A DNA stretch of 34,200 bases, from NCBI GenBank assembly GCA_903904195.1, contig CAIVBM010000008.1, positions 1-34,200 on the forward strand. The letters are read 5' to 3'. The translations under genes and the position numbers were made by a program. A model generated the notes under the pieces. It had not been told where the DNA came from. It ran no database searches and worked only from the letters and a program-made list of their open reading frames with translations. Of the stretch, positions 14,863 through 29,274 are shown one piece after another (the first letter of the stretch is position 1; each line of letters starts with the position of its first letter). This DNA comes from an uncultured bacterium. GTDB lineage: Bacteria > Patescibacteriota > Minisyncoccia > Phycocordibacterales > UBA9973.

Positions 14863-14977
14863 AACCTTATATTTGCTTGATTTTTTAATTTTTTAGTGAT
14901 AGTTTCAACTCGAAGGCGTTTGTTCAAGCCTTGTGGCTTTTTGTCAATTTAAACAACCAACACAAGAAGGGGTAAAT

Positions 14978-16021
14978 ATGAATATGAGACAAGGGTTAGA
15001 GCTTAGGCAGGTTCCAACAACGTTCATCATCGGTGATAGTTTGCATGCGAGGCATATGCGTCGTTTTGCCAAACGATTAGCGGGGACAACGTATCCGGTT
15101 CTTATAAGCGGGGAAACCGGAGTGGGAAAAGAAGTTGCCGCCATGGAGATTCACAGGCACGAGCAATCAGATGTTCCATTTGTTCCGGTGAATTGCTCTG
15201 CTCTCAGCCGTGATCTTTTTGAGAGCGAAATGTTTGGTCATAGGAAGGGTTCGTTTACGGGTGCAGTTGATGACAGGGAAGGTTTCCTAGAGTCGGCCGG
15301 AGATGGAATGGTTTTTCTTGATGAAGTAGGGACTTTGTCTCTTGCTTTACAAGTGAAACTCCTTCGCGTTCTGCAGGATGGAAAATTCAATCCGGTTGGT
15401 GAAAGGCGGCAGATTCAAATGAAAGCTAGAGTTGTTGCCGCGACCAATATCGACCTGCAAGAGTCAATACGGAAAGGAGAGTTTCGTTCGGATCTCTTCT
15501 ACCGTCTGAACGTAATCCTGTTCAATGTCCCACCCTTACGAAAGCGCTTGGAGGACTTGCCGTTGCTCGTTGAGTACTTTCTTCAAAAGGAGGGTTTGTC
15601 GAAAAAGTTTACGGCGAGCGCCTTAGTAGCAATGGGCAGCTATGACTGGCCGGGCAATATCCGCCAACTTGGAAACATTGTCCGCCGAGCAGTGTTCTTG
15701 GCTGATGAATGTGAACAGGTTGGTGTAGAACACATTAAGCTGTGCATCGAAGAAGCTGGGACGGACGGCGACGGAAGTAGTAAGAATGTTTGTCCTGATT
15801 CTTTTGTTGAGAAAGCTGCAACTAACGGAAGGTTTCCAACCTTACGGGAAGTGAAGAAGGTCTACTTGTGCGAACTTCTTAAACGAACCGGAGGAAACAT
15901 GACAAGAAGTAGTCGAATATCAGGTTTGACACTCAGGTCAATGAGAAATTGGGTTAGGTCGTTTGGTTTAAAAGATCTAGTTCGCTCAATCAAGAAAGAA
16001 GTAGAAGAAAAATTCACATAA
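14978..16021 (+). CDS. Sigma-54-dependent-type AAA+ transcriptional activator with Fis-type HTH
   Basis: GETGVGKE (Walker A), KGSFTGA (GAFTGA loop), GMVFLDEVGTL (Walker B), FRSDLFYRLNV, YDWPGNIRQL, C-terminal HTH; SD AAGAAGGGG before ATG 14978. Confidence 0.9.
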   Translation: MNMRQGLELRQVPTTFIIGDSLHARHMRRFAKRLAGTTYPVLISGETGVGKEVAAMEIHRHEQSDVPFVPVNCSALSRDLFESEMFGHRKGSFTGAVDDREGFLESAGDGMVFLDEVGTLSLALQVKLLRVLQDGKFNPVGERRQIQMKARVVAATNIDLQESIRKGEFRSDLFYRLNVILFNVPPLRKRLEDLPLLVEYFLQKEGLSKKFTASALVAMGSYDWPGNIRQLGNIVRRAVFLADECEQVGVEHIKLCIEEAGTDGDGSSKNVCPDSFVEKAATNGRFPTLREVKKVYLCELLKRTGGNMTRSSRISGLTLRSMRNWVRSFGLKDLVRSIKKEVEEKFT

Positions 16022-20769: not shown

Positions 20770-20821
20770 CCTCTCCCTAACCCTCTCCTTAATAAGGAGA
20801 GGGGAAAGAAAGGGGTGAGGT
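20769..20821. repeat. Palindromic intergenic element
   Basis: CCCTCTCCTT-aat-AAGGAGAGGG core (20781-20803), outer ACCTC...GAGGT. Confidence 0.7.
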
Positions 20822-20827
20822 GAATTT

Positions 20828-22543
20828 ATGGAATATAAAGCAGAAAATAAAACATGTCAGAATTGCAAAAAAGACTTTACGATAGAGCCGGAAGATTTTG
20901 GATTTTATGAAAAGATAAAAGTTCCTCCGCCGACTTGGTGTCCGGAATGCAGGATGATACGCAGAATGAATTATCGTAACGAAAGATCATTATATAAACA
21001 AGATTGCGCTCTTTGCAAAAAACCTATAATCACTATGTATAATTCAAAAGATGGATATATCGTGTATTGTATTGACTGTTTTAATTCTGATAAATGGAAT
21101 CCTGTTGATTATGGTAGAGATTATGATTTTTCTAAAAACTTTTTTGAACAGCTTAGTGAACTTTTTAAAAAGATTCCACGTAGGGCTCTTTATCAAGATT
21201 TTTCTGTAAATAGTGAATATAGTAATCAAGCAGTTTATATAAAAAATTGTTACCTTTGTTTTGGCGGGCATCATTATGAAGACTCTGCTTATTGTGCTCA
21301 AGATTTATATATAAAAAATTCTTTGGATACTGATTTTTCAAGTAAAAGTGAACTTTGTTTTGAATCTCTTTATTTAACGAATTGTTTTAGGGTCAGGTTT
21401 GGATATTTTTCAGAAAATTGTATGGATTCATGGTTTATGTATGCTTGTCGAAACTGTTCTAATTGTGTTGGATGTACAAATCTAGTTGGTAAAATGCATT
21501 GTATTTTCAATATACAATACACAAAAGAGGATTATAATAAAAAGGTAAAAGAAATGAATTTATCAAATAGAGAAAGTTTAGAAAAAATAAAAAAAGAATT
21601 TTGGAAACATTCTTTAATTTTTCCCAGAAAATATGCAAATATAAAAAATATTGTTAATTCTACTGGAGATTATTTAGAGCAAACTAGAAATTGCAGGTAT
21701 TCTTTTTCAATTATTGATGCGGAAAATGTATGTTATGCTTTTCATTCTCCGACCGGCGCTAAAGACTGTTATGATATCGATCATTGCGCGCTCGGAATTA
21801 GCGAAGTTTACGAATTACATAGCGCTTTTAGAGATAACAGAGTTTTCTTTTGTAATCGTGTTTACGATTCTCACAATGTTTCATATTCAGATGATGTTTA
21901 TAATAGTAATTATATCTTTGCTTGTGCTGGACTTCGTAAAAAATCTTATTGTGTCTTTAATAAGCAGTATTCTAAAGAAGAATATGATATTTTAGTAGAA
22001 AAAATAAGAAAACAAATTGATGAAATGCCGTATGAGGATAAAAAAGGTAGAATTTTCAAATATGGAGAATTTTTTCCATTTGAAATTATACCTTTTAGTT
22101 ATAATGATTCCGTAGTTTCTGAATATTTTCCTTTAAGTAAAGAAAAGATTTTAGAAGAAGGGTATAAATATACAGAACCTGAAGAAAAAAAATACAAATT
22201 TACAATTTCTCCTCATCAATTACCCGCAATAAAAGATGTAGATGAAAATATCTTGAAAGAAATTATTCAGTGCGAACACGGGGGTAAATGTAATCATAAA
22301 TGTACTACAGCTTTTCGTGTAATTCAAAATGAACTTAATATTTGTAAAATCTTAGAAACTCCACTACCAAGACTTTGTCCAAATTGCAGGCATATAGAGA
22401 GAGTAGAAGTATTGAATCAGCCTAGGCTTTACAATAGAAAATGTATGAACAAAGGATGTAAAAACGAATTTGAGACAAGCTATGCCTCTAGTAGGCCGGA
22501 AATTATTTTTTGTGATAGTTGCTACAAAAAGGAAGTATATTAG
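20828..22543 (+). CDS. Cys-rich protein with duplicated N- and C-terminal zinc-ribbon modules
   Basis: CQNC..CPEC..CALC..CIDC and CPNC..CMNKGC..CDSC; internal duplication CIFNIQYTKEDY / CVFNKQYSKEEY. Confidence 0.85.
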   Translation: MEYKAENKTCQNCKKDFTIEPEDFGFYEKIKVPPPTWCPECRMIRRMNYRNERSLYKQDCALCKKPIITMYNSKDGYIVYCIDCFNSDKWNPVDYGRDYDFSKNFFEQLSELFKKIPRRALYQDFSVNSEYSNQAVYIKNCYLCFGGHHYEDSAYCAQDLYIKNSLDTDFSSKSELCFESLYLTNCFRVRFGYFSENCMDSWFMYACRNCSNCVGCTNLVGKMHCIFNIQYTKEDYNKKVKEMNLSNRESLEKIKKEFWKHSLIFPRKYANIKNIVNSTGDYLEQTRNCRYSFSIIDAENVCYAFHSPTGAKDCYDIDHCALGISEVYELHSAFRDNRVFFCNRVYDSHNVSYSDDVYNSNYIFACAGLRKKSYCVFNKQYSKEEYDILVEKIRKQIDEMPYEDKKGRIFKYGEFFPFEIIPFSYNDSVVSEYFPLSKEKILEEGYKYTEPEEKKYKFTISPHQLPAIKDVDENILKEIIQCEHGGKCNHKCTTAFRVIQNELNICKILETPLPRLCPNCRHIERVEVLNQPRLYNRKCMNKGCKNEFETSYASSRPEIIFCDSCYKKEVY

Positions 22544-26244: not shown

Positions 26245-27891
26245 ATGGAAGCAAAGAAAATGAATTCAGCAGAAATTCTTGTACGATGTTTAGAGGATCA
26301 TGGTGTTTCTCATATTTTCGGAGTTCCTGGTGAAGAAAATTTAGCTTTTCTTGAGGCTATTCGTAAATCAAAAATAATTTTTGTTACTACTCGTCATGAA
26401 CAAGCAGCAGCATTTATGGCTGCCACATTTGGCAGGATGACTGGCAAAGTCGGTGTAGCATTGTCTACACTAGGCCCTGGAGCCACAAATCTGCTCACAG
26501 GCGTGGCTTACGCACAGCTTGGTGGATTTCCTTTTTTGGCTATTACCGGACAAAAACCGATTAAAAAGAATAAGCAAGGAAAATTCCAAATCGTTGATAT
26601 TGTGGCGATGATGAAGCCTATCACGAAATTTTCCATAACTATCACATCGAGCGAAAAGACGCCGAGCATGGTGTCTGAAGCGATAGAAAAAGCTGAAACC
26701 GAGCGCTTTGGCGCAGTTCATTTGGAATTGCCCGAAGACATTGCAAGTGAAGTCTGTGATGCTATTTCTTTTGATGCTCCGGTGATTCAAAATATAAAAT
26801 ATCCTACTGCAAAAGAAAAAGATATTAAAAAAGCATTGGAAGAAATAGAAAAATCTAAACACCCTTTGATAATCTTAGGTAGAGGTGCAAACGATGAACT
26901 CATCAGTAAAGTTCTAAAGAGTTTTTTAGAAAAGGCTGGTATTCCTTTTGTTTCTACGCAGATGGGGAAAGGTTCTTTTGACGAAAATTCAAAGTTATAT
27001 ATAGGCACTACTGCATTATCTGCTGGTGATTATGTGCATCAAGCTTTACAATCTGCAGATGTAATTATTCTAATTGGTCATGATGTGACAGAAAAGCCAC
27101 CGATGATTTTTGATAAAAAGAAAATAATTCATATCAATTTCTTTTCTTCAAAGTTTCCAGATGTTTATGTTCCTACCTGTGAGGTTATTGGGGATATTTC
27201 AAATACTCTTTCAGTATTTACAGAAAAAATAAAAATTAATCCCGCGTGGGATTTTAATTATTTCTTTAAAGTTCGTGATGCTTTAATAAAAATTATAAAA
27301 GAATCTTCTCAGTCTCAAGATTTTCCTCTTCGTCCTGAACGTATTGTCGGAGATATAAATAAAAATTTACCAAAAGATGGAACACTAGCTCTTGATAATG
27401 GCATGTATAAAATCTGGGTTGCAAGGAATTTTATTGCTAGTTCACCAAACAACATTCTTTTAGATAATACTTTGGCCACGATGGGTGCGGGTTTGCCTTC
27501 GGGAATAGCTTTAAAAGTTTTATATCCAAATAAAAAGGTCTTGGTTATGGCTGGTGATGGTGGGATTATGATGAGCATTGGAGATCTAGAGACTGCTGTT
27601 CGCCTCAAGTTTGATTTAGTCATATTGGTTTTAGATGATTCTGAATTTGGTATGATTCGCTGGAAACAAAGTAATATGAACTTGTCTCAATTTGGGCTTT
27701 CTTTTAATAATCCAGATTTTGTAATGTTAGCGAAAAGTTTTGGCGCAATTGGACATAAAGTTGAAAAAGCTGATGATCTTGCATTACATTTGCAAAAAGC
27801 GTTTAATTCTAAAGGTGTACATATCATCGTTTGTCCGATAAACTACGATGAAGCAAACAAGACATTAAAAAATATTAAAATAATTGAGTAG
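26245..27891 (+). CDS. TPP-dependent acetolactate synthase-like enzyme
   Basis: GVSHIFGVPGEENLAFLEAI, TRHEQAAAFMAATFGRMTGK, GPGATNLLTGVAYAQLGGFP, VMAGDGGIMMSIGDLETAVR (TPP motif). Confidence 0.92.
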   Translation: MEAKKMNSAEILVRCLEDHGVSHIFGVPGEENLAFLEAIRKSKIIFVTTRHEQAAAFMAATFGRMTGKVGVALSTLGPGATNLLTGVAYAQLGGFPFLAITGQKPIKKNKQGKFQIVDIVAMMKPITKFSITITSSEKTPSMVSEAIEKAETERFGAVHLELPEDIASEVCDAISFDAPVIQNIKYPTAKEKDIKKALEEIEKSKHPLIILGRGANDELISKVLKSFLEKAGIPFVSTQMGKGSFDENSKLYIGTTALSAGDYVHQALQSADVIILIGHDVTEKPPMIFDKKKIIHINFFSSKFPDVYVPTCEVIGDISNTLSVFTEKIKINPAWDFNYFFKVRDALIKIIKESSQSQDFPLRPERIVGDINKNLPKDGTLALDNGMYKIWVARNFIASSPNNILLDNTLATMGAGLPSGIALKVLYPNKKVLVMAGDGGIMMSIGDLETAVRLKFDLVILVLDDSEFGMIRWKQSNMNLSQFGLSFNNPDFVMLAKSFGAIGHKVEKADDLALHLQKAFNSKGVHIIVCPINYDEANKTLKNIKIIE

Positions 27892-27909
27892 GTGATTCTA
27901 CTAAATCAT

Positions 27910-29274
27910 ATGATTCAATCAAAAAATCCAGCAACAGAAGAAGTTTTGAAAAGTTTTAAAGAAATTTCAAATGAAGAACTTGAAAAGAAGGTTTCACTTG
28001 CGTCAAAGGCTTTTGAATCTTGGAAGAAAGCTTCGTTTAAAGAACGTGCGAGATTGATGCGTAAGCTCGGGAGTTATCTACGCGCTCACACCGAGGATTT
28101 ATCAAGATTACAGATGCTTGAAATGGGTAAAACTATAAAGTCAGGACCAGCTGGTATTTTAAAATGTGCTGACCTTTGTGACTATTATGCAGATAACGCA
28201 GAAAGTATTTTGACTAATGAGAAATTAAATACAAATAAAAAAGAACAATATGTGGAATTTGATCCTCTTGGAATAATTCTCGCCGTGATGCCGTGGAATT
28301 TTCCTTTCTGGCAAGTGTATCGTTATGCTGTACCAGCTTTGATGTCTGGAAACGTGGGGCTTTTAAAACATGCGTCAAATGTTCCACAATGCGCAGAAGC
28401 CATAGAAGAGTCATTTCGTGCTTCTGGTTTTCCTGAAGGAGTTTTTCAAAATTTATTTCTTTCATCTTCGCGTGTAGCTGGATTGATTCGTGATTCTAGA
28501 ATATCTGCTGTCACTTTGACTGGTAGCGAAAAAGCCGGCAGTGAAGTAGCTAGTGTCGCAGGATCTGAGATTAAAAAAGTAGTGCTTGAACTCGGTGGCA
28601 GTGATCCTTTTGTTGTTTTTGCTGATGCGGATATCGCTAAGGCTTCAAAATTTGCAGTTTTATCAAGACTTCAAAATAATGTGGGACAGAGTTGTATTTC
28701 AGCTAAACGCTTTATAGTGGAAGAAAGTATAAAAGATAAATTTATCAAGGTTGTCGTGGATGAACTTTCAAAATTATTTATTGGTGATCCTAGTGATAAA
28801 AATACAGACATAGGTCCGCTCGCCACAGAACAGATTTTGCTTGATGTTGAGAAGCAAGTAGAAAAGTCAGTATCTCTTGGAGCAAAGATAGTTTATGGGG
28901 GTAAAAGAAAATTTGAAAAGGGCCATTTCTATATGCCGACTGTTATGACAAATATTAAAAAGGGTATGCCTGTCTATGATGAAGAAGTCTTTGGACCAGT
29001 TGTGCCTATTATTACTTTTAAAAATGAAATAGAAGCAATACAAATAGCAAATGACACTAGGTATGGTCTCGGTGCATCTATTTTTACCTCTGATGTAAAA
29101 AAAGCAAAAAGAATCATCCCGCAGATTGATGCAGGAAATGTGTGTGTAAATGATATGGTCAAGTCAGATCCTCGTGCGCCGTTTGGTGGAATAAAGAAAT
29201 CTGGATATGGTAGGGAACTCGGCAGTTACGGAATAAAAGAATTTGTAAATATTAAAAACGTTTATTTTGGGTAA
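27910..29274 (+). CDS. NAD(P)-dependent aldehyde dehydrogenase (succinate-semialdehyde dehydrogenase-like)
   Basis: MPWNFPFWQVYRYAVPALMSGN, LELGGSDPFVVFADAD, NVGQSCISAKRFIV (catalytic Cys), EVFGPVVPI; start ATG 27910. Confidence 0.93.
   Translation: MIQSKNPATEEVLKSFKEISNEELEKKVSLASKAFESWKKASFKERARLMRKLGSYLRAHTEDLSRLQMLEMGKTIKSGPAGILKCADLCDYYADNAESILTNEKLNTNKKEQYVEFDPLGIILAVMPWNFPFWQVYRYAVPALMSGNVGLLKHASNVPQCAEAIEESFRASGFPEGVFQNLFLSSSRVAGLIRDSRISAVTLTGSEKAGSEVASVAGSEIKKVVLELGGSDPFVVFADADIAKASKFAVLSRLQNNVGQSCISAKRFIVEESIKDKFIKVVVDELSKLFIGDPSDKNTDIGPLATEQILLDVEKQVEKSVSLGAKIVYGGKRKFEKGHFYMPTVMTNIKKGMPVYDEEVFGPVVPIITFKNEIEAIQIANDTRYGLGASIFTSDVKKAKRIIPQIDAGNVCVNDMVKSDPRAPFGGIKKSGYGRELGSYGIKEFVNIKNVYFG

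Follow-up and report, generated by a model that had tools for sequence, protein, structure and literature searches.

The gene at positions 20,828 to 22,543 of the window, the 34,200-nucleotide stretch of DNA analysed here, encodes a Cys-rich protein (P0001) with homologous modules at its two ends and a duplicated middle. It belongs to a diversified family whose genes are recurrently linked to those of a VirD4/TrwB-like ATPase and of TrmB-type regulators. Our leading interpretation, which we hold tentatively, is that P0001 may belong to a specificity repertoire whose members serve a shared ATPase of this type.

Architecture of P0001

The open reading frame reported in the first-pass annotation was present as described, and the coordinates given there for both end modules and for the duplicated motifs were correct. 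The following features were assigned.

20781..20803, strandless: REP-like perfect hairpin CCCTCTCCTTAATAAGGAGAGGG, with arms CCCTCTCC and GGAGAGGG, 25 bp upstream of P0001
20828..22543, + strand: whole P0001 gene, 571 aa, ATG start, one of at least eight paralogues in its own genome
20849..21103, + strand: N-terminal putative zinc module, residues 8-92, two candidate treble clefs (hhalign, PF13451 cut-off passed by module relatives, AlphaFold2)
21188..21523, + strand: predicted solenoid 1, some seven turns of 12 residues over residues 121-232, with the cap motif HCIFNIQYTKEDY at its end (12-residue period, AlphaFold2)
21239-21490, + strand: residues 138-221, where the register of solenoid 1 is clearest
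21524..21613, + strand: cap helix 1 with its linker, residues 233-262, where variability is highest
21632..21973, + strand: predicted solenoid 2, residues 269-382, a copy of solenoid 1, with the cap motif YCVFNKQYSKEEY at its end (hhalign, AlphaFold2)
21974..22231, + strand: cap helix 2 with its conserved linker (GEFFP...PFxYN...EYFP), residues 383-468
22232..22540, + strand: C-terminal putative zinc module, residues 469-571, built like the N-terminal module; last residues CDSCYKKEVY

The end modules had been described as homologous zinc ribbons. Their homology was confirmed by BLASTP between the protein's own two ends (E 5e-11) and by profile-profile comparison with hhalign on a 96-member family alignment (probability 99.8, E 5e-29, 79 columns). 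The fold class was wrong, and zinc ribbon was dropped for treble clef on the matches to PF13451 and PF23477/TIGR04272. Stand-alone relatives of the N-module exceeded the cut-off of zf_Tbcl (PF13451; 36.6 bits vs 24) and four relatives matched PF23477 weakly (best 1.5e-4), while P0001 itself gave no match to PF13451, being below Pfam detection. Matches to Med15_N and LIM were short and sub-threshold, and these candidates were rejected. The Cys sites of the N-module (C10/C13/C38/C41 and C60-x2-C63-x17-C81-x2-C84) fit two metal sites, and the CxxC-x17-CxxC spacing of TIGR04272/PF23477 is exact at C60/C63/C81/C84. Two metal sites also fit the C-module (C539/C544/C562/C565 plus CPNC), whose second finger has a wider first pair, C539/C544, and keeps the x17 spacing from C544 to C562/C565. 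Judged from these spacings and family matches, each end module appears to consist of two treble clefs, one of zf_Tbcl type and one with CxxC-x17-CxxC, so four zinc sites would be expected per protein. P0001 shares treble-clef fingers in both end modules with zf_Tbcl and zf_Tbcl_2 (PF13451, PF23477, TIGR04272), but it differs from those domains in having two fingers fused per module and one such module on either side of a twin solenoid.

The duplication of the central region was likewise recovered, by BLASTP (3e-7) and by hhalign on the same family alignment (probability 99.9, E 1e-35, 129 columns). With 105 homologues, the best AlphaFold2 model reached a mean pLDDT of 93.5 and a pTM of 0.92, the other four had mean pLDDT of 84.7-86.2, and residues 301-370 within solenoid 2 had pLDDT of 79-89; a first run on an 11-sequence alignment (pLDDT 66) was set aside. 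The model supported the module duplication and predicts that the middle forms two solenoids with 12-residue turns, each closed by a strand and a helix with the motif IFNxQYTKEEY. The earlier suggestion of a metal-binding or beta-helix-like scaffold thus held in outline, with zinc as the presumed metal. In the family profile, solenoid 1 showed 12-residue (z=8.3) and 3-residue (z 5.6) periodicity, and in solenoid 2 the 3-residue period (z 5.1) was clearer than the 12-residue one (z 3.4). Cys, Ser and small hydrophobic residues occupy every third position, as expected of a narrow core.

P0001 matched no entry in Pfam or NCBIfam and no PDB sequence, and, consistent with the first-pass annotation, no characterised family. 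Foldseek found no global match in the PDB (TM-scores about 0.1, the best being unrelated hexapeptide helices) and none among viral structures, where the confident matches (probability about 1) were only to zinc-finger proteins and covered about 40-65 residues. The weak neighbours included the hexapeptide enzymes GlmU and LpxD. A regular solenoid is common to P0001 and to hexapeptide left-handed beta-helix and pentapeptide-repeat proteins, but the turn of P0001 has 12 rather than 18 or 20 residues, there is no shared motif, and the TM-scores are 0.07-0.2. The Tenebrio TmAFP-type antifreeze beta-helix has 12 residues per turn, with every third residue pointing inward and a Cys-rich core. P0001 resembles it in all three respects, the inward direction in P0001 being deduced from the period, but unlike TmAFP it is cytosolic-looking, zinc-capped on our reading, and has two solenoids with helical caps. 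A TmAFP-like match was absent from the best 50 Foldseek matches, and none was found by sequence.

Family distribution and divergence

Uncharacterised relatives had been anticipated in other CPR genomes, and an all-bacteria scan with P0001 peptides as query found them, so far essentially only in CPR. The impression of a single-copy gene did not hold: the genome carrying P0001 (0.68 Mb) contains nine family matches, two of them at contig ends, and thus at least eight copies. Some match was present in 49 of 287 Patescibacteria genomes and the family itself in 23 (about 8%), as full-length genes in 21 and as fragments in two; the remaining matching genomes had single zinc modules or short pieces only. 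Family-bearing genomes carry 3-21 copies, often in tandem operons, such as the 15 genes in 32 kb on one strand in G252 or the one-strand blocks of 13 and 8 genes in G135, with spacers in places of 10 bp. Gracilibacteria members (L013-L016) need UGA read as glycine (code 25) and are fragment-like under table 11. Split or permuted variants, with a twin solenoid lacking flanking zinc modules, were found at L109:3666-5207, L111:4173-5428 and L125:5947-7177. In such variants one or two zinc modules come after the twin solenoid, either fused or encoded separately, and those of G121, in which solenoids and zinc module are separate ORFs, still follow the ATPase gene.

A mobile or plasmid gene was considered and rejected: one array member had no plasmid match, and a single weak phage-record match was to the N-module. 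At its end, a phage-like IMG/VR contig (L121:4992-5147) encodes a piece of about 49 aa that clearly belongs to a family member (GCEGLRKKQYCILNKQYTKEEY). This contig carries tail-sheath-like and homing-type genes, and the family piece, which lies antisense to the start of the sheath gene, is a phage-borne copy, a pseudogene or the product of a chimeric contig.

P0001 is a solitary copy, flanked by rseP and ddl and remote from the linked ATPase; several other copies in its genome are likewise solitary and remote. A further Nomurabacteria genome (L005) has an orthologue with 77% identity at the corresponding place, and a sister genome (G132) has rseP-peptidase-ddl at the syntenic place without P0001. 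The REP-like hairpin occurs 12 times in the genome, three times within 1.2 kb of family genes; the other two of these are at C33:35038-35060, about 19 bp past the family copy there, and at C34:4794-4816. The hairpin upstream of P0001 is probably not part of its function. Elsewhere in the window, positions 14933-16021 encode a sigma-54-activator-type AAA+ protein (PF00158, 202 bits) in this 0.68 Mb CPR genome, flanked by an ATP synthase epsilon-like gene and an rsmI-like methyltransferase gene. Positions 26245-29274 encode a thiamine-pyrophosphate enzyme followed directly by an aldehyde dehydrogenase, a metabolic pair unusual in so small a genome.

The nearest relative of a family member is mostly in another genome, and the tree required at least 14 (G135) and at least 11 (G252) label changes on well-supported branches. 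Because paralogues within a genome are about 41% identical and orthologous subtypes persist across genera, recent amplification or an antigenic-variation array was rejected for most genomes; lineage-specific expansion was seen only in G243 and largely in G014. Comparison of paralogues places the solenoids (35% and 32% identity) with the least conserved domains and the zinc modules (47% and 53%) with the best conserved; comparison of orthologues gives the opposite order (70% and 66% for the solenoids, 62% and 63% for the zinc modules). The solenoid/zinc divergence ratio was 1.33 in paralogues and 0.82 in orthologues (Mann-Whitney p 7e-16, with pairs that are not independent). Cap helix 2 and its linker show some of the highest conservation in the family. 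The outward rung positions predicted from the sequence period (8, 9, 11 and 12) are 19% identical in paralogues and 68% in orthologues, the low paralogue value being partly a matter of choice, since these four positions were picked as variable, and the orthologue value not. Constant ends with a subtype-specific face are the pattern expected of a receptor or adaptor set with fixed docking ends. In the two orthologous pairs in which it was estimable, dN/dS was 0.05 and 0.11, indicating purifying selection, and synonymous sites were saturated in two orthologous pairs. Positive selection on the solenoid was considered and no sign of it was seen, with dN/dS about 0.1 where estimable and synonymous sites often saturated.

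Linkage to an ATPase and to TrmB-type regulators

Clustering of neighbouring genes gave two recurrent neighbours, the first of which is a VirD4/TrwB/HerA-like ATPase of 500-790 aa. In 20 of the 21 family genomes it lay no more than 3 kb from a family gene, co-directional in 19, against a chance expectation of 1.0, whereas none of 56 other VirD4-like paralogues in the same 21 genomes was near a family gene. The ATPase encoded inside the array of P0001's own genome (C29:7562) is high-scoring and outside both counted sets; it carries a CxxC-x17-CxxC finger above cut-off, as the family modules do. An ATPase of at least 900 bits was present in 17 of 23 family-bearing genomes and 0 of 264 others (Fisher 1e-22), and in 9 of 13 vs 0 of 264 without the model-building genomes (p 3e-14), both tests ignoring phylogeny; the 900-bit line was chosen after the list had been seen, family-bearing and family-free genomes meet at 860-870 bits, and the separation is partly built in because the model was made from array-linked copies.

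The linked ATPase exceeded the cut-offs of PF02534/PF10412 and matched TrwB (1e9r, E 2e-5), and it scored far below the NCBIfam equivalog cut-offs. It has the same P-loop core as the VirD4/TrwB/TraD coupling proteins (PF02534, PF10412, PF01935), but unlike them it has its own N-terminal domain, which lacks a Pfam match and is missing in the G000 (P0001 genome) and G163 copies, and no clear membrane anchor (hydropathy maxima mostly 0.95-1.57, with one of 1.67 at residue 341, not N-terminal). In the genus, a block of a PaaX-like regulator, DnaK and two VirD4-like ATPases (and DnaJ) is conserved (L077:4155-9661, L122:8182-14172). Family genes are inserted in this block in G000 and absent from it in G132, which has PaaX-DnaK-ATPase-ATPase-DnaJ and no family gene. 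Since G132 keeps two ATPases without the family, the ATPase has some use of its own. Together with the isolated position of P0001, this block indicates that a genome can lose the family and still keep the ATPase, and that P0001 works far from the ATPase gene.

The second recurrent neighbour was a TrmB-type regulator: 30 of 80 such genes lay no more than 2 kb from a family gene, where 2.4 were expected, with 26 of the 30 divergent, and divergent TrmB-type regulators accompany family genes in most family genomes. TrmB genes also occur in genomes without the family, and G000 has none.

Proposed role and alternatives

The occurrence of 3 to 21 versions per genome beside one ATPase suggests a system that recognises many targets. 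The shared treble-clef ends and the conserved cap and linker would dock on a partner common to all members, in all likelihood the linked ATPase, and the twin solenoid would present a subtype-specific face that recognises one cargo or target. Individual operons would be switched by the TrmB-type regulators that adjoin the arrays, and the cargo, or the protein itself, might leave the cell through a type IV apparatus. Against a repertoire that serves the ATPase stand the family-free ATPases of G132, the G000 and G163 ATPases without the N-terminal domain and the remoteness of P0001. A more specific version, which we regard as possible and advance with less confidence, is an adaptor system of these ultrasmall bacteria in which one VirD4-like motor would be served by a set of zinc-capped twin-solenoid receptors, up to about 20 in number. 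Each receptor would recognise its own cargo or host molecule, in operons under their own TrmB-type regulators, and the 12-residue-turn solenoid would be a cytosolic fold without a match among solved structures.

We rank the repertoire that serves the ATPase first, exported effectors second and nucleic-acid binding or defence third. The family proteins could themselves be cargo, an effector repertoire that these epibionts export into the host by type IV machinery, with the ATPase as coupling protein and the conserved C-terminal end as transfer signal. The adjoining, mostly co-directional coupling-protein-like ATPase in 20 of 21 genomes points that way, as do the conserved tail, which is EVY in 64 of the 105 members, and the absence of an N-terminal signal, no signal-peptide-like or membrane segments being found in family members. 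Patescibacteria carry 5,713 VirD4 homologues in 2,918 genomes, only 148 of them near virB4, and their T4SS is thought to be co-opted, with exaptation suggested as possible (PMC12102498). We nevertheless consider this reading unlikely: a uniform, rigid architecture with two zinc modules and strong orthologue conservation would be unusual for effectors, the C-terminal module is missing in split variants, the linked ATPases have no clear membrane segments, and one Saccharibacterium did not require its t4cp homologue for epibiotic growth (PMC12102498).

Intracellular nucleic-acid-binding or anti-phage proteins, in which the treble clefs contact DNA or RNA, the solenoids give specificity and the HerA/VirD4-like ATPase moves DNA, seem more improbable still. 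Treble clefs often bind nucleic acid, the zinc modules are slightly basic, and the phage-like contig has a family fragment at its end. The ATPase matches generic HerA/Mad8 defence models, but the Mad8 match is to the general ATPase core and no family protein matched the PADLOC models. Each solenoid is acidic, with a charge of about -4 on average, and the copies in P0001's genome lie among housekeeping genes, with orthologues stable across genera. Metal or thiol storage is very improbable: family proteins average 37.6 Cys, recurring at rung positions 1, 4, 7 and 10, which could hold zinc or another metal, but the rung Cys are freely swapped for Ser, Val, Ile or Leu in paralogues, as for core packing, and storage would not need 20 distinct subtypes with orthologue-conserved faces. 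Selfish or neutral amplification without a specific role, to which patchy presence, tandem arrays and the REP hairpins near three copies might point, is scarcely credible, being already largely refuted by purifying selection in the two estimable pairs and opposed by ancient subtypes kept across genera and by conserved partners.

A description of the family or the system was not found in the literature searched (mostly open-access, main texts), and nothing relevant appeared there on a treble-clef, tandem or TrmB-linked family in CPR. The label 'Caib/baif', which we take to be applied to such CPR proteins, led to no papers. We call the family new because nothing so far described, family or fold, matches its central part and because the three-part association was undescribed in that literature. 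Some genomes near 1 Mb give 1-3% to diversified copies of this one family and to its dedicated ATPase. The family bears on how Patescibacteria select what passes to or from their hosts, and thousands of VirD4-like ATPases located away from virB4 have no known partner (PMC12102498). The family is a first candidate partner for one subclass of them and, since it predicts which residues would set specificity, offers a testable partner hypothesis.
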